A program made the position numbers and the translations under genes. Under the pieces are notes generated by a model. It was given only the letters and a program-made list of their open reading frames with translations. It was not told the DNA's origin and searched no databases. A stretch of DNA of 64,000 nucleotides from a virus: IMG/VR virus record IMGVR_UViG_3300009011_000001, positions 62,001 to 126,000 of that record; one strand, 5' to 3'. Of this stretch, positions 6,830 to 26,108 are shown one piece after another; within the stretch, counting starts at the first letter, position 1, and every line of letters begins with the position of its first letter.

Positions 6830-8791
6830 ATGTCTGACGATAATCTGTTCAAAGACGGTAACAACGACCAATCTCACGCAGGTACCGAACAACGTCAAAA
6901 CGAACGCACCACCCACGAATCTGCGCAACAACGCTACGAACAGCCAGCACCATCGGCCTGGACTCTGGCTGATCTGGGTAACGTCCAAGGTCGTCCAAGC
7001 CTTGGCGGTCTGACCGACGGCGCTCTGTCGCTGATGATCGAAACCTTCGAAGAAGCCAAGGACCGTGCAAGCGGCCGTGTTCCCGAAGAAATCAGCTCCA
7101 AGCGCTTCAAAGCTCTGCCGCTGGTTGGCCAGCGCATCGGTAGTCAGATGTCGGCTCTGCTGATCGCTCTGCCTGCGACCATCGCCAACAAGCTGTACGC
7201 AATCGTCTACATCGCTCTGATCGAACCGGCTGGCCCGATGGCTACCCGTTCTCTGTCCGACGGCCAAGGCACTTACGAAGCTCTGTACCTGCCGGAAGAC
7301 CGCCTGACCGAGAAATACGTGAAGGCCATCCGTGACGAAGTGTCGGCCAACATCCCAGGCGCGCAAATCGTTATCGCCGGTCGTCAAGTGATCACCCAGG
7401 GCACCGTTGCTGCGCTGAACGAAAAAGAAGGCGTGGGCATCATCGAGCGCATCTTCGACAACGGCTTCGACGCAATCTGCGGCTACCGCCAGAACATGAT
7501 CGATGCCATCACCGGTCAGCGTACCAGCGATCGTCGCATCAACCCGGACGCCGTCGGTCGCCGTGACCGTCTGGAAGCCAGCTTCGACTTCTCCGGTGCC
7601 CAGCCTCTGGACACCTCGGGTCTGCCGATCGCTTCCGACGCCGCAATGACCATCTGGTACTCGGCCGCCGACCAGGACGAAGAAGGTAACTACAACCGTA
7701 TTCCTCTGGCCGAAGCGCGCATGTCGCTGAACCTGTTCCTGGATCAAAGCACCAAGCAAAACACCCTCGGCTTCGGCCGTCGTCGTGATCGCAACAAAGA
7801 TGACCCGGCTCCGTTCCAAGCGGTGCTGACCATCAACAACGTGACCTCGCCGCAAGGTGTTCCGTTCTCCCTGGAACTGGCGCAGCTGACCATCGCAGCT
7901 ACCGCAATCCTGTCGAACGACTACCGCTGGGCTGAAATCCTGCGTCCGCGCGCTACCATGCCTTCCGGCCTGAAGCCTGCGTACAACATCAAAGACCTCG
8001 TGCATTTCGCCGACGTCACCGATGAGCAGCGTGAAAAGATCCTGCAAGCCGTTACTCCGAACATCAGCGACGCCGACCTGTCGAACTACCTGGACCTGGT
8101 CGTTCAACCGCAAATCGCTTTCGCAATCGTGGCTCCAAGCTCCTGCGAGAAATCGTGGGTTCTGTCGATCTACGAGAAGATCGCAATGGCGAAGAACGAT
8201 GCCGAGCGCCGTGCTCTGACCACCACCCTGTACGACAGCGCCGACGTCGTGACCGGCAAGCGCTTCCGTAAGGTTCTGCGCGAACTGGGCGGCGACGACA
8301 GCACTCCACCAGTTGTTCTGACCGGCAACCCGACTCTGGTCGGTACCTGGGTCGACTCCGACGGTCGCGAGCGCGCTCTGAGCGAAATTCAGAACGTGCC
8401 TGCGGTCCTGAGCCGTGTCGGCGCGAAAGGTCTGGAGCTGGTTGAAGACTTCCAGTTCACCATCCAGGACGATCGTCGTCCGGTTCCGGCCAACTTGGCG
8501 GACCGCTTCGGCATGTTGAACAAGTCCTTCGGTTCGATCCACGTTGTGACCACTGCAGAACAAGTCGGCCTGGTGCCGATCTACCTGCAAGCGCTGAACA
8601 TCTCCCTGCAACAGGCCAACATGACCTGCGTACCGACTTCCCTGGAAGGTACTCAGACTCGTCGTCGTCCTGCTTCGGGCGGTTACGGCGGCCTGGCCAC
8701 CAACGATATCGGCGCCACTCGCCGTCAAGGTTCCGGCTTGTCCGGCCTGAACACCCGTGGCAACGATCCGTTCGGCGGTCGCTACTTCTAA
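6830..8791 (+). CDS. chmA: Chimallin-like phage nucleus shell protein (ChmA candidate)
   Basis: A 653-residue protein with a polar, disordered-looking N-terminal segment (about 1-50, rich in Asn, Gln, Glu and His), a long globular core, and a Gly/Arg-rich C-terminal tail ending in Phe (about 605-653). This matches the known plan of chimallin: a folded core with flexible N- and C-terminal segments that lace subunits into a lattice enclosing the phage genome. I assign it mainly by context: it immediately precedes the beta-prime N-terminal RNAP subunit, as gp54 precedes gp55 in phiKZ. Supporting signs are strongly biased C-ending codons typical of very abundant proteins, AAGGAG five bases before ATG 6830, its own promoter and a long leader. 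I did not align it to a known ChmA, so another abundant phage protein cannot be excluded. Confidence 0.7.
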   Translation: MSDDNLFKDGNNDQSHAGTEQRQNERTTHESAQQRYEQPAPSAWTLADLGNVQGRPSLGGLTDGALSLMIETFEEAKDRASGRVPEEISSKRFKALPLVGQRIGSQMSALLIALPATIANKLYAIVYIALIEPAGPMATRSLSDGQGTYEALYLPEDRLTEKYVKAIRDEVSANIPGAQIVIAGRQVITQGTVAALNEKEGVGIIERIFDNGFDAICGYRQNMIDAITGQRTSDRRINPDAVGRRDRLEASFDFSGAQPLDTSGLPIASDAAMTIWYSAADQDEEGNYNRIPLAEARMSLNLFLDQSTKQNTLGFGRRRDRNKDDPAPFQAVLTINNVTSPQGVPFSLELAQLTIAATAILSNDYRWAEILRPRATMPSGLKPAYNIKDLVHFADVTDEQREKILQAVTPNISDADLSNYLDLVVQPQIAFAIVAPSSCEKSWVLSIYEKIAMAKNDAERRALTTTLYDSADVVTGKRFRKVLRELGGDDSTPPVVLTGNPTLVGTWVDSDGRERALSEIQNVPAVLSRVGAKGLELVEDFQFTIQDDRRPVPANLADRFGMLNKSFGSIHVVTTAEQVGLVPIYLQALNISLQQANMTCVPTSLEGTQTRRRPASGGYGGLATNDIGATRRQGSGLSGLNTRGNDPFGGRYF

Positions 8792-15968: not shown

Positions 15969-16754
15969 ATGTCGGACCAAAAACAAGGCTGGACTCCCAC
16001 GGTAATGGATGAGCGAAAGCTCAAACTCCACGGCGAACATGCTCTGGTGGAGGGCGGGTTCAAACCTGAGTTCGCCATCAAGTGGATTCAGAAAACCAAC
16101 GCCTTCTCCATCAAGGTCAACACCGGCACCAAGACCGAGAAAGGTTATCCGATCGTTATCGAGACCGCCATCGACTGCCTGTCGTTGATGGAACTGATGG
16201 AACTGATCGACACCATCTCCAAAGCGCCGGGCGCCGTGTCCTTCGAAATGGACAACTGGGGCCAGCCGTTCATCTACAGCAAGGAGCAGGGCAAGTCCAT
16301 CCGCAGTCCGGACATCCTGAACGTTTCTCGCTTCCAGATCGCCAAGCGCGAAGACGGCTCCATGGTTCTGTCCGTGGCCGCCAAGGGCAAGAAAGAACTC
16401 GAGTTCGAATTCAAGGGCAGCGACTTCCACCGTATCCAGAAACAGGGCGAAGCGAACAAGGCCATGGCCTCGCGTATCGCAGCTCAGACCTGGGCCGGCT
16501 TCTGGAAGAAGTTTGCTTTCGAGAAGTACACCAAGGACTGGGCAGAAACCGAGTACGACAAGAACAAGCGTATCGAGCGCATGAACAAAGCCAACAACAA
16601 TGGCGGCGGTCAGCGTAACTACAACAGCAATAGCGGTGGTGGCAGCAATAACAACTACCAGCAGCGTCCTCAGCAACAAGCTCCTCAGCAAAGTGCTCCT
16701 GCACCGGCGTCGCAGCCATTCGAAGACAGCTTCGATGACGACGTTCCGTTCTAA
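15969..16754 (+). CDS. Single-stranded DNA-binding protein-like
   Basis: The 261-residue protein has a globular N-terminal two thirds (about 1-185), a low-complexity linker of Asn, Gly, Gln and Pro (about 195-245), and the acidic tip FDDDVPF. That tip is nearly identical to the DDDIPF tail by which bacterial SSBs recruit replication and repair proteins. The globular part shows no OB-fold motif I can name by eye, so it may be a divergent SSB or a T4 gp32 analogue. AGGTGG lies six bases before the ATG. Codons are biased like a highly expressed gene, as expected for an SSB. It is followed by a strong hairpin and sits among DNA-metabolism genes. Confidence 0.78.
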   Translation: MSDQKQGWTPTVMDERKLKLHGEHALVEGGFKPEFAIKWIQKTNAFSIKVNTGTKTEKGYPIVIETAIDCLSLMELMELIDTISKAPGAVSFEMDNWGQPFIYSKEQGKSIRSPDILNVSRFQIAKREDGSMVLSVAAKGKKELEFEFKGSDFHRIQKQGEANKAMASRIAAQTWAGFWKKFAFEKYTKDWAETEYDKNKRIERMNKANNNGGGQRNYNSNSGGGSNNNYQQRPQQQAPQQSAPAPASQPFEDSFDDDVPF

Positions 16755-16912: not shown

Positions 16913-18493
16913 ATGGAGTTAAGAATTGCAACTTACACAGTTCGAAGCTTTTCGATTGTGGAAGCGAGGCATGGGGATGAGCCGGAACTTGTGTTCAATA
17001 CGGCAGGCTACACATCCACAAAGCCCGGCGCAATTAAGCGTGACGACGACAGCGAACTCGGCACCAAGATCGAGCTCTTTGAAGAAATCAACGCCCTGAT
17101 TGCAAGCCTTGATCAGAAATCGCAGGACGCATTGTTCGAGGAGTACGCTCGTCTGGACAGTACGTTGACCAGTTTCCATGTTATCGGATCGACTGGCATC
17201 TCTGCGATGAAACAACTGAAAGAAAACCTGTCGGCGATCATCAAAGCGATCTACGACATCATTCCTTTCAGCGCTTTCCGCGACTACATCGTTAACAGCC
17301 CGCACATTCGACTGCCCATCGAGTTGGCGGACACCTACGTCACCACAGACAAAGTAACACCGCTGTATAAAGAGCGGACTTACCTTCGCCCTGAGTACAT
17401 CGATCTCAATGCGTATGCATTGGCTCTGCGGCTGATGATCCCAATCTGGGGCGGCTATCTCCCGATCGCCGAAACCGAGCATGGGAAGATGAAAGAGTAC
17501 GACGCGTTCAAGCTGCTCTACGGTTCTGCCTTAATGAAGACGCCGGTGTTCGATCGGTTGGAGCGTTATCTGGCAGCAAACCTCGACGCAAGCAAGTACG
17601 AGTTGTCGGTGGTCTCGAAGTTCTTGTCGGCAGACGAAGTCCCAGGGTTCCTTGCAGCGTTTGCATTGATCCGGAAAGTCAGCGTCGCGCCATTGTCGGC
17701 TGTGTCTGATAAAGACCACCTGATGAAGATCATCTATAACTACGTTATCGGTGACAAGAACCGCATCCCTCCAGCGTTCGCGAGCAACATCCGCGATAAG
17801 AAACCTGACGACTCCTCGTCTGAAGGTAACGAAAGCGTCTGGGGTATCTTCAAGATGAAAGCAAAGATCTCCACCGGGGACTTGTGCATCATTGAAGAAT
17901 ACATCGAGAAGTACACCCGAGCCGCCAAGAAGATTGCGCCGACTCTGTCCGATGAACGAATCGAGCTGTGTGTTCAGAACGCTCTGACTCTGCACGACTT
18001 CGATCCGACCTACGGCCAAGAGTGGCTGGTGATGCAAGTGTGTTCTACGATCATCGTGGGTACAGCCATCGAGTTGATGGATCGCACACCTGGGCTTATT
18101 GCAGCAGGTATTGTTCAAGCGGTATTGTGGGAATGGGAACTGCCGCAACTGGCTATTCTGACCACGGCCCGTATCGCCAAACTTAAAGAAGGAGAAATCA
18201 TTCAACCGATGCGGCGCTTACCCATTGCGCCTGCTTTGCTAGAACAGTTTGATGTGATCTACCCGTACCGGACGCCCGAGCCGAAACGTGGCGATCCGAT
18301 CCAGTCAACCAACACCGGTGTCATCGATGTTGAGAAGCATGCCGCACACTTCTATCGCCACGACTGGGTTCCGCAATGCCCGACTGAACTTGCCAAGAGC
18401 TACTATCGTTCCGACAAGACCCGACGGATCGAAGTCACCGGTGACCTTAACAGTCAGCTTGGTGAAATGCTGGTCAAGATCAACAACTTCTAA
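16913..18493 (+). CDS. Unknown 526-aa protein in the nvRNAP fifth-subunit (gp68) position
   Basis: First gene of a unit with its own promoter; GGAG six bases upstream of ATG 16913. The protein is helical, without zinc, Walker or nuclease motifs. Its size (526 aa) and place, two genes plus one before the beta C-terminal RNAP subunit, agree with my memory of phiKZ gp68 (about 520 aa), the extra non-virion RNAP subunit needed for promoter recognition. That homology is not proven from sequence here. A structural role is an alternative. Confidence 0.6.
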   Translation: MELRIATYTVRSFSIVEARHGDEPELVFNTAGYTSTKPGAIKRDDDSELGTKIELFEEINALIASLDQKSQDALFEEYARLDSTLTSFHVIGSTGISAMKQLKENLSAIIKAIYDIIPFSAFRDYIVNSPHIRLPIELADTYVTTDKVTPLYKERTYLRPEYIDLNAYALALRLMIPIWGGYLPIAETEHGKMKEYDAFKLLYGSALMKTPVFDRLERYLAANLDASKYELSVVSKFLSADEVPGFLAAFALIRKVSVAPLSAVSDKDHLMKIIYNYVIGDKNRIPPAFASNIRDKKPDDSSSEGNESVWGIFKMKAKISTGDLCIIEEYIEKYTRAAKKIAPTLSDERIELCVQNALTLHDFDPTYGQEWLVMQVCSTIIVGTAIELMDRTPGLIAAGIVQAVLWEWELPQLAILTTARIAKLKEGEIIQPMRRLPIAPALLEQFDVIYPYRTPEPKRGDPIQSTNTGVIDVEKHAAHFYRHDWVPQCPTELAKSYYRSDKTRRIEVTGDLNSQLGEMLVKINNF

Positions 18494-18519: not shown

Positions 18520-20172
18520 ATGCGTCTTCTTAAACTAAACTTCGTCGAAGCTCCACCGATGGCCGATCAGTACATTCGGTCATTCGATTTCGATATGAAG
18601 AATAGCCGGATTGACGATCTGGCAAGGCTGACCGAAGACGGTACAAACATCCTTCCTGAACGACTCGCCAAAGTCAGTTCTTCGCTGATGTCCCCAACGA
18701 CCCAACGTCGTGAGAAGATCGTTTCTCAGATCGATAAGGGCTGGGGGCAGCGCCGGATCATGTTCTCGATGGTGGTTGAAACATCCAGCCGTCCAAACCA
18801 TCAGACGTACGAATACATCGTTGGCCATACCGACCACGATGGCTTCTCGATGCTCGGCATGAAGGAAGTGAAGCTCGACAACCGGATGAAGCTGTACTTC
18901 GACCAGATCACCCACATTAACCTGTCGGGCGGTATGCGTCGTAATCAAGAAATCTGGACTCCGTCCATCAAGGCCAGTGACTTGGTCTTGAACCGTGACA
19001 CGCTGCGTGGGTTTGGCCACGACGACCTAGCTAGCCATGGCGGTCACCGCCCACTCACCAAGCGCCCAACGGATCTCTTCCGCCGCGAAGGCGCAGAGCT
19101 GAACTACAACGAAAGCAACTTCAGCCTAGACAGCGATAGCAACGATCGCCGTTCGGAAACCCACACCAACAATACTGTTGGTACGTTCACAAGCACGTTG
19201 AAGCTTTCCAGTCGCGATAACAATAGCCCAACCTCGTTCCTTCATCGGACCCTGGATGGCTACGTTACGGCATCTACCGGCCTGGGCCTGGGCGCTGATT
19301 CCAGCCCGTACGGTTTGCCAGACGAACGTCAGAACAAGCTGAGTAATCTGAAGCGTGCCTACGGCACTGTGGATGAAAACGATCCATCAGCTGACCGCTA
19401 CATCGAAGAGCTCAAGGAGAATACCCGGATCCTCAACACCGGTTACATCACCTACGGCGAACTTATGGAGATGAACCCAGAGTTCGTCAAGAGCGCTCAA
19501 GAAGACTTCGCCTTCGCAGATCCAAAGAAAAGCTATCGCCATGGCGACATGGGGATGTGGCGCGGTGACGACAACGAAACCATTGCAGCGTTCCAGATTG
19601 CTTGCTCGCTTCCGGGCCTGATGATCAAGAACATGTACTCGAAGATCGATGGGTTCACCATCAACTCCTACGGGCACAGCAAACTGCAGCGGATCACTGG
19701 CGGTATCACCAGCCCGTACATCGAAGGTATCGATACTTCTGCCACATGGCCGAACTTCGAACACCAGGTATCTGAAATCATGATCCACGAAGTCACTCGT
19801 GGGGCATTCAACTTCGAGGCCAAGATCGATGCAAACGTTGACGGTTTCGTCGACATCTGGATCCGCATCGACGGTGGTCCTGAATCCTTCCACAGCTTCC
19901 CGGCATATTGCGCAGGCACTGTGGCTCCGACTCTGGATACCGACGTGACTTCGCTGAGCCGCATGAGCCGGAACATGACTTCGATCTCGAACAGCTTGGC
20001 TGACAGCCGTCTGAATCGTAGTCGAATCAGTCTCGGTGAGCTTAACCGCAATGAAGAAGGCGGTATCAAGCTTGGTATTGGCGGTAACTTCCGCCGCGAA
20101 AACAATGATCTTTTCGGTAACACCGACGATCTTCCGTCCAGTCTCGCACTTCCTTCGAAGAAGAACTGGTAA
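18520..20172 (+). CDS. Unknown 550-aa protein with disordered C-terminus (gp69 position)
   Basis: Starts 26 bases after the previous stop with GAGG upstream. The N-terminal half looks globular (beta-rich, VVETSSRPNHQTYEYIVGHT). A central polar Asp/Ser/Asn-rich stretch lies near residues 200-240, and the C-terminus (about 490-550) is rich in Ser, Asn, Arg and Gly and ends in KKNW. The tail segment GGIKLGIGGNF recurs in altered form (GGIRLGGDNGL) in the next gene, suggesting the two proteins share a partner. No known family recognised. Confidence 0.7.
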   Translation: MRLLKLNFVEAPPMADQYIRSFDFDMKNSRIDDLARLTEDGTNILPERLAKVSSSLMSPTTQRREKIVSQIDKGWGQRRIMFSMVVETSSRPNHQTYEYIVGHTDHDGFSMLGMKEVKLDNRMKLYFDQITHINLSGGMRRNQEIWTPSIKASDLVLNRDTLRGFGHDDLASHGGHRPLTKRPTDLFRREGAELNYNESNFSLDSDSNDRRSETHTNNTVGTFTSTLKLSSRDNNSPTSFLHRTLDGYVTASTGLGLGADSSPYGLPDERQNKLSNLKRAYGTVDENDPSADRYIEELKENTRILNTGYITYGELMEMNPEFVKSAQEDFAFADPKKSYRHGDMGMWRGDDNETIAAFQIACSLPGLMIKNMYSKIDGFTINSYGHSKLQRITGGITSPYIEGIDTSATWPNFEHQVSEIMIHEVTRGAFNFEAKIDANVDGFVDIWIRIDGGPESFHSFPAYCAGTVAPTLDTDVTSLSRMSRNMTSISNSLADSRLNRSRISLGELNRNEEGGIKLGIGGNFRRENNDLFGNTDDLPSSLALPSKKNW

Positions 20173-20198: not shown

Positions 20199-21488
20199 AT
20201 GTCAACGAAACTCGACAGTCTACTTGATTTCTATCTGAAGCTGTTGTTGGACGTCGGTGTGTTCGACAAAGATGGCAAAGGGCTGTTGTCCTACGATCAT
20301 GGCGGAACTCCTCATCCGGTATCGCTGGCCGGCACGCGTCTGTGCCTGCCGACCCGCGAGATCGTTCGTGACGGCGAATGGACTGCCCGTACGGCATTCC
20401 ACCCAATGTCTGAGCAGATCAACCAGGGCCCATCGCCGGTACTGAATGCACTCAAGGCGTATATCGTCGAGCGCATTCGTCCGGTGTACAAACTGATCGC
20501 GTTGGAGCTGGCTGAGCTGGTGGCTGATCATAGCCGCCACAAAGGCCTGTCCACCAAAGCGGCCAAGTTCATGAAGCCGCTAGTTGGTTTCGACGACACC
20601 ACGACCAAAGCTCTGGAAAAGGTTTTCAAGCGCACCAGCACTGAAATCCCTGAAAAGCGCCTGGTCAGCATCTTCCTGCAAAGCGGTGGCGGTAATGGCG
20701 TCCTGCGCAGCTGCAGCGTTTCCTTCCCGCTGATGGATGACGCCGACAACGAAGACACCACCACGTTCTTCGAAGTCAACATGCCGCGCAAGACCAAGGA
20801 CAAAGGGCTGATCGTAGCTCTCCTGAAATACGTTCTGGGCGAAGCTTCGGATTTCACCGGTGAAGTCAAGACCGGCGATGCGCCGTACTTTGAAAGCCTG
20901 CTGATCAGCTTCCGCAAGATTGCTGAGCATCTGAACGGTCTGATCGATCTGCACAGCCCGGCATGCCCGGTGTTGAAAGACTTCCGCTTCCATCTCGAAT
21001 GGATGGATGTGCTGGATAAGTTCGGCGAGTTCTGCGAGAAGTACGGTGTAGCGGTTCCGGCATTGCCGGGTAATGTGGGTATCGATCCAGAGCCAGAAGA
21101 TGAAGAAGAAACGCCAACCCGCTCGGTCTTCGAAAGCACAGCAGACCAAGTCGGTTCGCTGGACCTCCCGTTCAGCAAAGACGGCGAAGAGCGTAGCGGC
21201 ACTGGCGGTTCTCTTTATCGCAGTAGTGCTGCCCATACTCGCGATCGCGATCAAGGTGATCGTGGCCTGGATTCTGGCAGATCTGATAGCAGCAGCTTGA
21301 GCATCTCCGACATCCTGCGTGATCGTGGCAGTCGTGATCGTGATAGCGGCCTTGATCGCCGTCCGTCTCGTGACAGCCGTGACAACCGCGATCTGTTCTC
21401 CCGTCGGGATGAAGAGCGTGGCGGTATTCGCCTGGGTGGCGATAACGGTCTGGGCGGTTTGGGCCGCGGTGGCGGTAAGCGCTGGTAA
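20199..21488 (+). CDS. Unknown 429-aa protein with Arg/Asp/Ser-rich repeat tail (gp70 position)
   Basis: The N-terminal 300 residues look globular and helical. From about residue 328 to 429 the sequence becomes a low-complexity tract of RD, SR, DR and RGG-like dipeptides, ending GGGKRW. This resembles eukaryotic RS/RD and RGG domains that drive phase separation or nucleic-acid binding. GAGGGG lies upstream; a competing ATG four bases earlier opens only a ten-codon frame. The gene lies between two probable RNAP-related genes. Codons are biased as in abundant proteins. I do not recognise a family. Confidence 0.72.
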   Translation: MSTKLDSLLDFYLKLLLDVGVFDKDGKGLLSYDHGGTPHPVSLAGTRLCLPTREIVRDGEWTARTAFHPMSEQINQGPSPVLNALKAYIVERIRPVYKLIALELAELVADHSRHKGLSTKAAKFMKPLVGFDDTTTKALEKVFKRTSTEIPEKRLVSIFLQSGGGNGVLRSCSVSFPLMDDADNEDTTTFFEVNMPRKTKDKGLIVALLKYVLGEASDFTGEVKTGDAPYFESLLISFRKIAEHLNGLIDLHSPACPVLKDFRFHLEWMDVLDKFGEFCEKYGVAVPALPGNVGIDPEPEDEEETPTRSVFESTADQVGSLDLPFSKDGEERSGTGGSLYRSSAAHTRDRDQGDRGLDSGRSDSSSLSISDILRDRGSRDRDSGLDRRPSRDSRDNRDLFSRRDEERGGIRLGGDNGLGGLGRGGGKRW

Positions 21489-21531: not shown

Positions 21532-21873
21532 TTAATTTGCCGTTAGACGAGTTCGATAAACCATCTTCATCCTGGCAACTAGATCTTTGTCTGGAATTAG
21601 CAAGGTCCCGATGTTCTCGTTGATTTCGTGCATGGAGTTAATTCCGTTCACACGCATAATCAATTGGTGGTCTTCAAGCTCAACTCCCTGTTCCAGTAAG
21701 TACCCGGCCAGGTCAAACTGAAACAGAAACCCTTCCTCTGGCGCAACGGCAACAGCGCGCGTAGCAGGGTGGGTTCTGAAAAACGTAACCAGTGACTCGA
21801 TGTAAGTGTTGTAATCGCGAGTTGTTGTGTATTCGTCAGGGCTCTCAATACGAAGATTGTCCAGCGCGCTCAT
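21532..21873 (-). CDS. Hypothetical protein, 113 aa
   Basis: A single minus-strand gene inside a plus-strand region. GAGG lies five bases before its ATG at 21873. A small acidic protein with an even mix of helix and strand and no recognised motif. It is convergent to the Arg/Asp-rich protein gene and divergent from the RNAP beta gene, so it may have been inserted between them. Confidence 0.75.
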   Translation of the reverse strand: MSALDNLRIESPDEYTTTRDYNTYIESLVTFFRTHPATRAVAVAPEEGFLFQFDLAGYLLEQGVELEDHQLIMRVNGINSMHEINENIGTLLIPDKDLVARMKMVYRTRLTAN

Positions 21874-21907: not shown

Positions 21908-21942
21908 TTGTGTAGTACCATTACCGCCCAATGGAGTTGCAA

Positions 21943-24120
21943 ATGTCGGATCCGCGATTTCCGATTCACCCTGAGTATGTTTCATTTAACGGGATGAACT
22001 CGTATTTCAAAAACGTGTCACCCGTTCGACAAGTGATGCACACCGGCGCTATGTCCCAAGCGCTGATCGTAGATGGCCGCACCCGTAAGCGTCAGCAATC
22101 GGGTCTGGAACGAGAAATTGCCCGAGGAGCTCTAAACCACACGTTCCGAAACGACGTGATCATTCGAGCCGTAATCCCACGCTTTACTGATGACATGTTC
22201 AGCCACCTTCCCAATGGCCGAACTGCAAACCCGCTCGATCTGGTGATCTTTGAAGATTACCGTACCGAGCAGCTGGACGTCATGGAGCTTTCTAAGTTCC
22301 ACGTCATGCACCAGCACTTTGGTTTCGTGTTCGACATCGACGAAGACATCTATAACCGGATGGCCAACGTCAAAGATGTCATGATTCCAGCAGGCACTTG
22401 TGTGGCTCGCTCTCCGGCCGTTACGCCGGATGGTGACTACATGCCCGGACTCGAAACCAACGTTGTGATGCTGTCTCACCCGGCAACGGATAACGACAGT
22501 ATCATTTTCTCTGAGTCCTACGCGTCAAAGCGTATCCGTTCCAACGCCTTCGAATCTCGTGGGCTGGAATGTGGCCGGCACAAATATCCGATTAACGCTT
22601 ACGGCAATGGCTCGATCTTCAAGCCAATGCCCGATGTAGGCGAGATCATTCATAGCAACGGTCTGCTGATTGCGACTCGTCCTTACGACGAACGCCTCGA
22701 TGCGGTCTACATGACGCGCAAGCAGTTGCTCAAGCCGATCTATTGGCTGGATGATCGAATCGTTGGCCACGCAGGTGCTGAGATTGTTGACATCGAAGTG
22801 ATGCACAACAGTCATCTTGCAAGTCAGCGCTTGCCGGAAGAAATGTCAAGACAGTTCCGCAAGTACTACGACGCCGATCGCCGCTTCTATACGGAGCTGA
22901 TCCGCAATACGGTATTCCGTAGCGGGCGTTGGAATGACAACGTGAACATGTCTGACCGTCTGGCTACTCTGGTCACCATGGCAATCCCTCGTGCCGGTCA
23001 CATGCTGGTCGAAGAGGGAATGTGGCCGAAGAACCAGGCTGATGAACTGGACGTGCGTCTGAACTATCGTGGCGATCTGCTCGATGAGTGGAAGGTGAAA
23101 CTTACCTACCGCTATAAGACAGAAGCAGGCGAGGGTCCAAAGGCTACGGACGAAAACGGCGCTAAAGGCGTTGCATCGTTTGTAATGCCAGACGCCGACA
23201 TGCCGGTCGATGCATTCGGTAACCGTGCTGAGATTGCTGTACTCAGTAACCCGACTGTAAACCGGATGAACCCTGGTCGTCCTCACCAGCAAATGATCGG
23301 CGCTGCCGGTCGTGATGTAATCAAACGTGTTCGCCGCACCTACGGTCTGCCGTCGATGGGCGAAGTCACGAGAGAAGGGGCTGAGCGTGCTGTTTACGAC
23401 AAAGCCAATGCTGAACTGAACTTTAAGAACTTCGCGTACATCGTTGGGTTCTACAAGATCGTCAGCAAAGATCGGATGTACATGTTGGCAACTCGCGATG
23501 ACGTCATCTCTACTGGACGCTATCTGCGACATCTCGTCGAAGTCATTCTTGACGGCAACGGCGAGCATGCTTACGGCATGTACATTCAGAAGGTCCCTGA
23601 GAGCGAAGATAAGCTCGATGAGATCATTGATGCGCTGTACTCTGGCGATTACCGCCCTGAGATGAGCCCGGTTACCTTCCGCGATTACAGCGGCAAAATG
23701 GTGACCACCAAGGAAGATGTGCTGATCGGACCGATCTACCACCTCATCCTGGAAAAGACTGCTACCGATGGCTCTGGCGTGAGTTCTGCGAAGCTTAACC
23801 ACTTCGGCATTACTTCGCGTCTGACCAATGCCGACAAGCACTCAACCGCTGGTCGTCAAACGGTGACTCGTTCTCTCGACGAGGCATCCATCCGGAGCAT
23901 GGCAGCGGCATCTGGCGCTGAAGTCATGGCGCACATCGTTGACCTGCACAACAACCCAGTGGTGCACAAAGCGGTGTGTCGCAACATCATTACGGCCGAT
24001 AAGCCTACCGACATCGATGAACTCGTTGACCGGTCGGTCTTTAAGCTGGGTGGCCACCGGCCGCTTGCGTTTGCAATCAACCAGTTCATTTGCTCAGGCA
24101 AGTTCATCACTCACGACTAA
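21943..24120 (+). CDS. RNA polymerase beta-like subunit, C-terminal half (probably non-virion RNAP)
   Basis: The 725-residue protein matches the beta C-terminal part. KGVASFVMPDADMPVDAFG (about residue 408) followed by NPTVNRMNPGRPHQQMIG corresponds to the KGVI...EDMPxxxxGxxxDIxLNPxGVPSRMNxGQ block of bacterial beta. Near the C-terminus, VLIGPIYHLILEK and HSTAGRQTVTRSLDE correspond to the VGxxYxxKLxH and GGxRxGEMExWAL blocks. I choose ATG 21943 (GGAG six bases upstream) over ATG 21931. The next gene encodes the beta-prime C-terminal half, so the pair corresponds to phiKZ gp71-73 and gp74. The N-terminal half of beta is not in the window. Confidence 0.88.
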   Translation: MSDPRFPIHPEYVSFNGMNSYFKNVSPVRQVMHTGAMSQALIVDGRTRKRQQSGLEREIARGALNHTFRNDVIIRAVIPRFTDDMFSHLPNGRTANPLDLVIFEDYRTEQLDVMELSKFHVMHQHFGFVFDIDEDIYNRMANVKDVMIPAGTCVARSPAVTPDGDYMPGLETNVVMLSHPATDNDSIIFSESYASKRIRSNAFESRGLECGRHKYPINAYGNGSIFKPMPDVGEIIHSNGLLIATRPYDERLDAVYMTRKQLLKPIYWLDDRIVGHAGAEIVDIEVMHNSHLASQRLPEEMSRQFRKYYDADRRFYTELIRNTVFRSGRWNDNVNMSDRLATLVTMAIPRAGHMLVEEGMWPKNQADELDVRLNYRGDLLDEWKVKLTYRYKTEAGEGPKATDENGAKGVASFVMPDADMPVDAFGNRAEIAVLSNPTVNRMNPGRPHQQMIGAAGRDVIKRVRRTYGLPSMGEVTREGAERAVYDKANAELNFKNFAYIVGFYKIVSKDRMYMLATRDDVISTGRYLRHLVEVILDGNGEHAYGMYIQKVPESEDKLDEIIDALYSGDYRPEMSPVTFRDYSGKMVTTKEDVLIGPIYHLILEKTATDGSGVSSAKLNHFGITSRLTNADKHSTAGRQTVTRSLDEASIRSMAAASGAEVMAHIVDLHNNPVVHKAVCRNIITADKPTDIDELVDRSVFKLGGHRPLAFAINQFICSGKFITHD

Positions 24121-24134
24121 TCGAGGTATCATCA

Positions 24135-26108
24135 ATGCGTACGTTTCACGTCAGAGAATTCTTTGACAATCCGCAAAGAGATTGGCCGTGTTTGAAAGAT
24201 GAGCTGTTTACCCTGCAGTTGGACGACGGGGAGAAAATCAAGACCGTTACGGCGGCGCTGGAGATCTCCAAGAAGTTGTGGTTGGTCCATGAGAAGTACG
24301 ACCGCCTGCCGATCCTTGCGCGTCACTGTGTGCAAAAGGTACCGATGTCCAATGGCGATATTTCTGCCATTGGCTCGGCGGTAGCCGAAGATATTCACGA
24401 CATCTACGGCATCGGCGGATATAACCGGGAAGAGCTCTGGTGGTATATGCAGCTGAACAACCAGCGGCTGTACAACGAGAGTATCATTGACTATCCTGAG
24501 TACATGAGGGGGTCTAACTCCTTCACGTTCCACGAGGTCTACCAACACCCGGAAATCAAGAAGATTCGGGAAACGCTTTACGATAACCCGACAGCAATCT
24601 CCATTGAGAAAGCGAACGACAAGGCAACGCACGTCATCATGACGGCACCTGACCTTGCGCGTAACGCCATCGTATCTGACCTCCGGGCCAAGATCATCAA
24701 GATGGAGCAGTTCCTGCAGGTCATCCTTGTTCGGGGTTTCAACACCGACATCGATGACGTGATCTATCGCAAGCCGATCATGGGCAACTATTACTCCGGC
24801 ATCAACGACCCTGCTGAAGCGGCCATGGACTCGACCTTGGCTTCCAAAGCGATCATCTATCAAGGTGAGCCGTTGGAGCAAACCGAATACGCCAACCGGA
24901 AGTTGCAGTTCAGTTCACAGCGGGTTGATCTGCTGATCATGAACGACTGTAACTCCCCGGTGTTGGCACCTATCGAAGTGACGCCTGCGCGCTACTCCGA
25001 CATGGAAGGGTTGTACTTCAAAGATCCGGAGACGGGGAACCTCAAGTCCCTGCGTCTGCGTGATCGAAAGAAATACGAAGGCATGACTCTGAGCTTTCGG
25101 TTACCGTTCAATTGCAAGTATCGAGGCAGTGCTTGCGTATGCCGGATGTGTTACGGCGAGCTGGCATTCAACCTGCCTTACGGTGTGAACATCGGCCATG
25201 TGGCTTCCACCATGACTCAGTCGGAAGTATCTCAACGAGTGCTGAAGGTTAAGCACTCCGAGAAGTCGACTGTGGCCGAACGTATCAACATCAACTCCGA
25301 GGAGAAGCCTTACATCGACCATGCTGAAGCGCCGAATATGATTGTTCTCAATCCTAATTTGGCGAAGAATGGCATCAAGTTGTTGCTCAAGGCTGCGGTG
25401 GTTCAGGGCGTGTTCAATGCGTCCAAGATCCCACTGCTCAAGAAGGACCAGATTCGCGAGGACGTTCCGACGTCCAAGTTCAGTCAGTTCCGCAATGTGT
25501 CGTTCGATCTGCCGACTCAAAGCAAACAACCGATGCGGGTGCACGTCACTGTCTCGAGGGGTGGTAACTATTCCTTCCTGACACACGACTTCCTACGGTT
25601 TATGCTTAAAGAACAGTTCACAATCCGGGAAGATGGGTATTATCACATCGACCTGACGAACTGGGATTTCAACAAGCCGGTATTCGAGCTGCCGAACAAA
25701 CATATCTCGATGCGTGACTTCGCTGCTGAAGTTGAGGTGTTCGTTCGTTCCACACGGGATAACTCCAGTCGCCACCTGGGTCGCCTGAAACAGCTGACCC
25801 AATACGCCGACCCAGTGGAAGCAATGCTGGACGCGCATGAACTGATCGCGAGTAAGGTTCCCGTTTCGATGACTCACGTAGCCGTGGTGCTTCTATCCAT
25901 GACTGTGGGCATGGACCGGGACAGCGTCAAGATCCCACCGTTTGGCGAGACTCTGCGTTTCGCTAAGTACGGCAAGATCCTGGCGAACGGTAGCTACGGT
26001 GCGCTGTTTGCGTACCAAGGCGCCAATGCGGTAATGGACAAGATGGAGCAGTTCCTGATTGTAGATAGGATGCAACATTTGCTCGATCCGATGATCATGC
26101 CAAATTAA
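24135..26108 (+). CDS. RNA polymerase beta-prime-like subunit, C-terminal half (probably non-virion RNAP)
   Basis: A 657-residue protein; GAGGT seven bases before ATG 24135. The segment around LEQTEYANRKLQFSSQRVD, ending in DCNSP, corresponds to the trigger-loop region and following DCGT of bacterial beta-prime. It is followed by CVCRMCYGELAFNLPYGVNI, the second zinc-binding CxxCYG block, and GHVASTMTQSEVSQRVLKVK, equivalent to the GVIAAQSIGEPGTQLTxxTFH segment. It completes the beta-prime chain begun at 8876-10375, with the two halves encoded 14 kb apart. Expected to work in the phage nucleus on middle/late promoters. Confidence 0.88.
   Translation: MRTFHVREFFDNPQRDWPCLKDELFTLQLDDGEKIKTVTAALEISKKLWLVHEKYDRLPILARHCVQKVPMSNGDISAIGSAVAEDIHDIYGIGGYNREELWWYMQLNNQRLYNESIIDYPEYMRGSNSFTFHEVYQHPEIKKIRETLYDNPTAISIEKANDKATHVIMTAPDLARNAIVSDLRAKIIKMEQFLQVILVRGFNTDIDDVIYRKPIMGNYYSGINDPAEAAMDSTLASKAIIYQGEPLEQTEYANRKLQFSSQRVDLLIMNDCNSPVLAPIEVTPARYSDMEGLYFKDPETGNLKSLRLRDRKKYEGMTLSFRLPFNCKYRGSACVCRMCYGELAFNLPYGVNIGHVASTMTQSEVSQRVLKVKHSEKSTVAERININSEEKPYIDHAEAPNMIVLNPNLAKNGIKLLLKAAVVQGVFNASKIPLLKKDQIREDVPTSKFSQFRNVSFDLPTQSKQPMRVHVTVSRGGNYSFLTHDFLRFMLKEQFTIREDGYYHIDLTNWDFNKPVFELPNKHISMRDFAAEVEVFVRSTRDNSSRHLGRLKQLTQYADPVEAMLDAHELIASKVPVSMTHVAVVLLSMTVGMDRDSVKIPPFGETLRFAKYGKILANGSYGALFAYQGANAVMDKMEQFLIVDRMQHLLDPMIMPN

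Follow-up and report, generated by a model that had tools for sequence, protein, structure and literature searches.

The extreme C-termini of two neighbouring phage gene products, a gp70-family protein and the import protein PicA (Imp1), change in step across phage lineages, and these paired sequence changes suggest that the two proteins work at one site. The gp70-family gene lies in a 64,000-nucleotide stretch (the window) of a 248,574-base IMG/VR record, and encodes a folded domain followed by a disordered tail that is rich in Arg, Asp, Ser and Gly in this phage. PicA is necessary for protein passage across the chimallin shell; in the report that describes it, AlphaFold gave no confident prediction for a PicA oligomer, and its discoverers expect yet-to-be-identified partners (PMC11087766). 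The covariation of the tips points to gp70, an uncharacterized protein of the shell, as a probable PicA partner.

Gene block and identity of gp70

The following features of the window define the neighbourhood of the gene.

6830..8791, + strand: homologue of chimallin (ChmA), 653 aa, with an Arg-containing C-terminal segment (phrog_4795, nuclear shell protein, E = 7.1e-36)
15969..16754, + strand: ChmC/Imp6 homologue (phiKZ gp67), 261 aa (phrog_3284, synteny)
16913..18493, + strand: nvRNAP subunit/sigma-like protein, homologue of phiKZ gp68 (phrog_3209, E = 2.4e-84, synteny)
18520..20172, + strand: PicA/Imp1 homologue (phiKZ gp69), 550 aa, with a disordered tail at residues ~503-550 (phrog_3141, E = 8.9e-57, synteny, AlphaFold2)
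20155..20169, + strand: C-terminal tip of PicA, SKKNW-COOH, compared with the gp70 tip
20199..21488, + strand: gp70-family gene, 429 aa (ORF from ATG, phrog_3520, tblastn, synteny)
21532-21873, - strand: small opposite-strand gene, 113 aa (phrog_3455)
21931..24120, + strand: phage RNA polymerase (RNAP) beta-type subunit (phrog_3295, E = 4.2e-152)
24090..26108, + strand: phage RNAP beta'-type subunit (phrog_3015, E = 8e-137)

The gene order of phiKZ is kept in the window, from SbcD and gp66 through gp67 (ChmC), gp68, gp69 (PicA) and gp70 to the RNAP subunits, with gp70 directly downstream of the PicA gene. The series gp67, gp68, PicA, gp70, opposite-strand gene and RNAP was matched in PhiPA3 and other named phages, with two exceptions: PhiPA3 has no annotation for the opposite-strand gene, and pEa_SNUABM_54 and AH06 have gp67 at a greater distance upstream. 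A CDS of 111-122 aa on the opposite strand between the gp70 and RNAP genes is annotated in nine of the ten named relatives, PhiPA3 being the tenth. Since the window holds a chimallin together with a phiKZ-type RNAP gene block, the phage belongs by gene content to the nucleus-forming jumbo phages, and it very probably makes a nucleus, as the first-pass annotation of this DNA had supposed. Chimallin was matched in 59 of the 60 relatives' records searched, the exception being a 72-kb record. The 324-kb record behind L087 (G045, loci L132 and L152) contains two chimallin-family matches (E = 9.2e-99 and 1.5e-54), and the other 58 positive records contain one each. A single-sequence phmmer search of ChmA against the sequences of solved structures returned no relative, though chimallin structures exist (PMC9365700).

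The gp70 protein of the window matched phrog_3520 over residues 7-308 (E = 9.4e-56). A tblastn search of phage records gave matches in 156 records, every one below 60% identity, and the 60 matches listed are to records of ~223-323 kb. In PhiPA3 its counterpart is gene 064, whose annotation notes similarity to phiKZ gp070 and 201phi2-1 gp126, and the closest of the ten named relatives aligned to it is pPa_SNUABM_DT01, with 31% identity. The window gene is a homologue of PhiPA3 gp64, phiKZ gp70 and 201phi2-1 gp126. In a published study of PhiPA3, gp64 is one of six clearly shell-localized proteins, along with gp61 (ChmC), gp63 (PicA), gp2 (ChmB), gp148 and gp375, and pulldowns of gp2/ChmB recover both gp63 and gp64. 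According to the same study, gp64 was found in one of three RecA proximity trials and in the ChmA set, outside its top 25, and the shell-localized proteins, the portal excepted, were not detected in virions (PMC10643120). The gp70 protein of the window phage probably sits on the nuclear shell as well. PhiPA3 gp64 is, to our knowledge, the only family member with known shell localization, and we know of no import mutants of gp70. A published table of 56 knock-down hits in phiKZ includes 067, 068 and 069, but not gp70 (PMC12571901).

An AlphaFold2 model of gp70, built from an alignment of 54 sequences, has a confident N-terminal domain. This domain found no match in the PDB at E ≤ 0.001 by Foldseek, and VIA-align gave a best Z of 4.4, with unrelated rows. 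Only 13 matches at E ≤ 0.001 were obtained in a viral structure library, the named ones being uncharacterized phage proteins. No NCBIfam model matched gp70, and neither the gp70 nor the PicA alignment found a relative among the sequences of solved structures.

At its C-terminus the ChmC/Imp6 homologue (15969-16754, + strand) has a linker rich in Gly, Asn and Gln and then the acidic tip SFDDDVPF, which we take to resemble the tip of bacterial single-strand-binding protein (SSB). Such a tip occurs in gp67 of 31 of 44 non-redundant genomes and is altered in the phiKZ/PhiPA3/201phi2-1 group; NCBIfam SSB models match only residues 196-261 of the window gp67, below cut-off (best E = 3.4e-4). The resemblance suggests that a reader of SSB tips may take part in ChmC function. 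ChmC has reportedly been seen to form condensates with RNA.

The disordered tail and its composition

The gp70 protein of the window is divided as follows.

20199..21077, + strand: folded N-terminal domain, residues ~1-293 (AlphaFold2 pLDDT mostly >90)
21090..21485, + strand: disordered C-terminal tail, residues ~298-429 (pLDDT 32-55, mostly <55)
21165..21173, + strand: tail motif [LV]P[WF], here LPF, residues 323-325 (motif count against shuffles)
21186..21485, + strand: last 100 residues, a mixed-charge tract rich in Arg, Asp, Ser and Gly (composition)
21300..21317, + strand: core of the conserved motif, SISDIL, residues 368-373 (Gibbs motif)
21471..21485, + strand: C-terminal tip, GGKRW-COOH, which covaries with the PicA tip

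The Arg/Asp/Ser-rich tail of about 100 residues described in the first-pass annotation was confirmed, the last 100 residues comprising R21, D15, S16, G19, E4 and K1 with a net charge of +3. Over the 132-residue tail the fractions of R and D are 0.17 and 0.14, and over a 124-residue tail the net charge is +1 and the charged fraction 0.38. The best 100-aa stretch holds 33 RS/SR/RD/DR/RG/GR/GG dipeptides, compared with 16 in the next of the 133 window ORFs of ≥100 aa, and 0 of 5000 whole-protein shuffles reached 33 (maximum 19). When the tail alone was shuffled, RD/DR was clearly enriched (14 vs 6.5; 3 of 2000 shuffles as high), GG was weakly raised (6 vs 3.3; 167 of 2000), and RS/SR (8 vs 7.1) and RG/GR (6 vs 7.5) were at chance level. 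The repeats of RD, SR and GG proposed earlier are therefore reduced to RD, with a weak contribution from GG and none from SR.

RS domains are defined by more than 40% R+S in at least 50 residues, and RGG boxes by di- or tri-RGG clusters. The best 50 residues of the tail reach an R+S fraction of 0.50, above the RS-domain threshold. An RS domain was rejected on the chance-level RS/SR count and on the absence of an N-terminal RRM, gp70 having no Pfam match at E ≤ 0.1; an RGG box was rejected since RG is at chance and the two RGG copies in the tail form no di- or tri-RGG. The label RS/RGG-like given to the tail earlier is accordingly abandoned. Because RD/DR alone is clearly enriched and the net charge is about zero, the tail is similar to an arginine-enriched mixed-charge tract; its repeats are of the Arg/Asp kind and not of the SR or RGG kind. 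A DNA tandem repeat was rejected as its origin, no long repeat lying under the tail, where 9-base units occur in ~2 copies. On another contig, L003 encodes a tail of like make-up in the same frame, with 54% identity (81% in the domain), and 23 of the 69 residues identical between the two tails use another codon, so the tail is a real protein frame and not an artefact.

For comparison across the family, loci of relatives were gathered through an alignment of the neighbouring RNAP, the gp70 family alignment being too divergent, and 80 of 104 relatives were kept. The window and 91 loci gave 92 sequences, in all of which (92/92) hmmsearch found both gp70 and PicA. Duplicates (e.g. L003/L013, L005/L057 and L006/L089) were collapsed by gp70-domain identity, to 64 sequences at 90%, 45 at 60% and 26 at 45%; the 45, window included, form the non-redundant set. 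Locus L084 lacks gp67, so that gp67 counts are out of 44, and 43 of the 45 genomes yielded a ChmA sequence. The start of each gp70 ORF was taken as the first ATG/GTG/TTG past a stop, which may be too early in a few cases and leaves the ends unaffected. In 9 of the 45 genomes the picA and gp70 reading frames share 23-68 bases; in the others a gap of 2-73 bases separates them.

The first-pass annotation had staked its idea on the tail not being absent from all relatives, and a tail of 71-274 aa was found in all 45 non-redundant members. Arg makes up ≥13% of the tail in eight of them (the window, L004, L014, L017, L018, L031, L072 and L091), and the remaining 37 tails are mostly Gln-, Pro-, Met-, Ala- or Gly-rich. 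With 37 of 45 members lacking it, Arg-richness is ruled out as the function that the family conserves. The eight fall into one six-member clade and two single rows, requiring at least three state changes on a tree obtained by a quick search, which has four long branches (L083, L058, L067 and L072, the last an Arg-rich row outside the main clade). The tails of L007 and L055 consist of Tyr-Gly/Gln-Pro repeats, with 16 and 14 Tyr and 21 and 13 aromatic-Gly dipeptides, respectively. This Tyr-Gly-type composition is reminiscent of the YG- or FG-rich phases formed by proteins of the peroxisome and the nuclear pore.

A Gibbs search recovered the motif G-x-[LIV]-[SD]-[FMWLI]-x-[DSE]-h-h in most tails (14.7 bits; six shuffled sets gave 9.6-10.1), and it reads SLSISDIL in the window; the motif is seemingly misplaced in some tails (e.g. 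L006, L010 and L018), so that its conservation is a majority statement. The motif [LV]P[WF] was counted in 11 of 45 tails, whereas 1000 shuffle sets gave 2.5 on average and 9 at most. With motifs conserved while composition varies, the composition of the tail appears free to drift and its short motifs to be held. The family is a natural series, in which the arm has switched between Q/P/M/Y-rich and R/D/S/G-rich at least three times with the short motifs kept, and it lends itself to studying the role of low-complexity composition.

The composition of the gp70 tail also tracks that of other proteins. Its Arg fraction rises with that of the 60 C-terminal residues of ChmA (rho 0.74, n = 43), as does its charge with that of the PicA tail (rho 0.63, n = 45), kinship being ignored in both. 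Under the same neglect of kinship, rho for charge was 0.08 with the gp67 tail and 0.04 with the gp70 domain, and whole gp68 correlated weakly with the gp70 tail (0.43 for Arg, 0.38 for charge). In all eight Arg-rich genomes the Arg fraction of the last 60 residues of ChmA is 0.10-0.25, compared with 0.02-0.17 in the 35 others. In the window lineage, ChmA and two shell-associated proteins have moved jointly to charge-rich tails.

Matching C-terminal ends of gp70 and PicA

Within one genome the ends of gp70 and PicA are often alike: KRW and KNW in the window, GLL and GLL in PhiPA3, FGNI and FGNI in L040, and RSGF and RANF in L018, so that the last residues are matched as W/W, F/F, I/I or L/L in different lineages. 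The idea was formed on 12 genomes (the window, L003 and the ten named phages) and then put to the larger set. There, gp70 and PicA share their last residue in 25 of 45 genomes, compared with a mean of 7.1 on re-pairing (0 of 20000 shuffles as high). A tree-aware simulation of two independent traits gave a mean of 6.5 matches and a maximum of 21, with 0 of 5000 runs reaching 25. Position -2 is alike in 15 of 45 (0 of 5000 simulations) and -3 in 12 of 45 (6 of 5000), and the match is weak at -4 and -5. This fading indicates that the match belongs to the extreme end and not to the composition of the tail. The match holds in the 34 genomes outside the idea-forming set (20, vs a mean of 5.9; 0 of 20000) and after removal of the two most coherent clades (14 of 31; 0 of 20000). 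Control pairs gave 5 of 45 (gp68-gp70), 3 of 44 (gp67-gp70), 2 of 44 (gp67-gp69) and 7 of 45 (gp68-gp69); the last value was reached by 232 of 5000 simulations, and the tree model is thus not perfectly conservative.

The last residue differs in 20 of 45 genomes, and in 13 of 45 a hydrophobic residue is missing from one or both ends. A hydrophobic or aromatic last residue was found in 41 of 45 PicA, 34 of 45 gp70 and 17 of 45 gp68 proteins. In an Erwinia/Proteus-like group PicA stops soon past its aligned domain, with hardly any tail, and gp70 ends in Arg. The specificity of the tip was examined in a PhiPA3 scan of 1557 ORFs of ≥50 aa, which covers all but the ends of genes 055 and 222 (at fetch borders) and genes of <50 aa. 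By-eye comparison found 19 ORFs ending in -LL or G-h-h, of which the annotated ones are only gp63, gp64 and gene 129 (FGVV); within the scan, gp63 and gp64 are the only annotated genes ending in -LL. The match of the tips, like a function for gp64/gp70, was not found described in the literature searched, a scope that excludes many subscription papers and all preprints.

Several other origins of the match were rejected. Of 22 matching pairs of tips, 10 are written in different synonymous codons, and the DNA immediately before the tips is no more similar within a genome (0.284) than between genomes (0.264); gene conversion is rejected on these grounds, and selection appears to act on the protein end. 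Paralogy of gp70 and PicA was rejected by hhalign of the 54-sequence profiles (probability 0.4%, E = 0.16), and the PicA model gave no known fold in the PDB. The end of ChmA was rejected as a source of the tips, since it reads YF in the window (tips W) and GFY in PhiPA3 (tips GLL). In lineages with -I tips ChmA often ends in RW or RWG. Both tips have low confidence in single-chain AlphaFold2 models, which thus give no hint of either tip docking onto its own body. The PicA and gp70 tails of the window and L003 also share an internal GGI[KRQ]LG-like stretch, with the pairs GGIKLGIG/GGIRLGGD and GGLKLNIG/GGIQLGGG.

Possible roles and known systems

From the observed homology, synteny, predicted disorder, motif conservation, tip covariation and composition shift we infer a physical link between gp70 and PicA, a role in import, and a spacer or mixing role of the R/D tract. 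The reading that we favour, tentatively and at somewhat less than an even chance, is that gp70 is a shell protein and scaffold partner of PicA, both tips being held by one co-evolving, phage-encoded site. The folded domain of gp70 would be the anchor, and the disordered arm would offer short docking elements, namely [LV]P[WF], S-h-x-D-h-h and the C-terminal end itself. This end of gp70 would mimic that of PicA in the same phage, with the same site reading both; this site may belong to a third shell protein, or gp70 and PicA may read each other. It is conceivable that the phrog_3455 product is a partner of the tips. Through this shared reading of the tips, gp70 and PicA would gather at the one place on the shell where import occurs. 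The Arg/Asp-rich stretch would be the form that the spacer takes in this lineage: a mixed-charge tract, hydrated and without net charge, that fits the Arg- or charge-rich tails of ChmA and PicA in these genomes. It may promote mixing among the shell proteins. Several observations weigh against the reading: the 20 genomes in which the last residues differ, the Erwinia/Proteus-like group, the absence of gp70 from the phiKZ knock-down hits, the detection of gp64 in one RecA trial of three and outside the ChmA top 25, the score of the control pair gp68-gp69, and the lack of homology between gp70 and PicA. A PicA-sfGFP fusion, which as written is probably tagged at the C-terminus, also still gives a punctum, albeit with untagged phage PicA present (PMC11087766).

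A bolder version of this reading is doubtful. In it, gp70 would be a core component so far missing from the known import gate, a scaffold with a disordered arm that would form the single import site jointly with PicA. These two proteins alone would carry a C-terminal code that differs between lineages (W, F, I or L plus 1-2 residues), and one co-evolving shell receptor would read it. If true, the code would keep the import machinery of co-infecting nucleus-forming phages separate, and the varying low-complexity arm would be a phage counterpart of the disordered import phases of the nuclear pore and peroxisome. As the covariation pinpoints 3-5 residues, the proposed partnership of gp70 and PicA is testable in phiKZ or PhiPA3.

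Charge chemistry rather than the tips might gather the import complex, the Arg/Asp-rich tails of gp70, PicA and ChmA co-condensing. This is unlikely: the correlations of the gp70 tail with the ends of ChmA and PicA and not gp67, the high Arg of ChmA in all eight Arg-rich genomes, and the three state changes speak for it, but the chemistry is absent from 37 of 45 members and so cannot be a general mechanism, and the correlations ignore kinship and extend weakly to the Arg of gp68. In addition, alternating, neutral R/D peptides adhered poorly to RNA and did not phase-separate alone in published work on such peptides, although artificial R/D repeats could still be sorted into a condensate (PMC9324279). 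That work also counts against concentration of RNA, and leaves room for co-mixing with like tails. According to the first-pass annotation, an RS/RGG-type tail would bind RNA or RNAP and concentrate it in the phage nucleus. As an account of gp70 this model is very unlikely. The tail is Arg-rich and disordered, the RNAP genes adjoin it, and ChmC, encoded nearby, is described in a review as an RNA-binding protein of the phage (PMC12908238); against this stand the net charge of +1, the chance-level RS and RG pairs, the missing di- and tri-RGG, Arg-richness in only 8 of 45 members, and the location of gp64, reported at the shell and not in the lumen (PMC10643120). We therefore consider an RNA- or RNAP-concentrating role of the tail unlikely.

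Two further explanations concern the tips. Each could dock on the chimallin lattice like an extra CTS1/CTS2 segment, gp70 and PicA being independent of each other and not partners. Chimallin protomers are joined through extended terminal segments (PMC9365700), both homologues are shell-localized (PMC10643120), and a common receptor would explain matching tips; the last residues of ChmA are nevertheless unlike the tips, and PicA gives a single punctum and no coat over the shell (PMC11087766), which makes lattice docking decidedly unlikely. C-terminal ClpX signals are short and hydrophobic. The tips could likewise be degradation signals for a protease such as ClpXP that set the levels of both proteins, the tail being a mere spacer, and the frequent hydrophobic or aromatic last residue, sometimes with a basic residue before it, would fit. 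A conserved host protease, however, would favour a single signal everywhere, whereas the residue at the tips (W, F, I or L) depends on the lineage and agrees between gp70 and PicA; this explanation is highly improbable.

Among known systems, PhiPA3 gp64/phiKZ gp70 (phrog_3520) is the same family, with the same place between the PicA and RNAP genes and a tail in all members; gp64 differs in its Met/Gln/Pro/Ala-rich tail and GLL tip, compared with the Arg/Asp/Ser/Gly-rich tail and KRW tip of the window protein. PicA/Imp1 (phiKZ gp69) resembles gp70 in its adjoining gene, its shell localization in PhiPA3, its disordered C-terminal tail and its last residues, but has an unrelated folded domain and proven import mutants (PMC11087766). 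ChmC/Imp6 (phiKZ gp67) shares with gp70 the gene block, the combination of a fold with a low-complexity tail, and a shell-localized homologue, gp61; its Gly/Asn-rich linker and SSB-like acidic tip are different, and its tip does not covary with that of gp70 (3 of 44).

SR-protein RS domains and RGG boxes are like the window tail in being Arg-rich, disordered and C-terminal, with R+S at 50% in its best 50 residues, whereas gp70 lacks an RRM, RS/SR above chance, di- or tri-RGG and a net positive charge. Arginine-enriched mixed-charge domains have R and D as the main charged residues, enriched R-D pairs and a net charge of about zero, all as in the window tail. Unlike them, the tail is also Ser- and Gly-rich, is encoded by a phage and ends in a conserved tip, and most members of its family are without the charge pattern.
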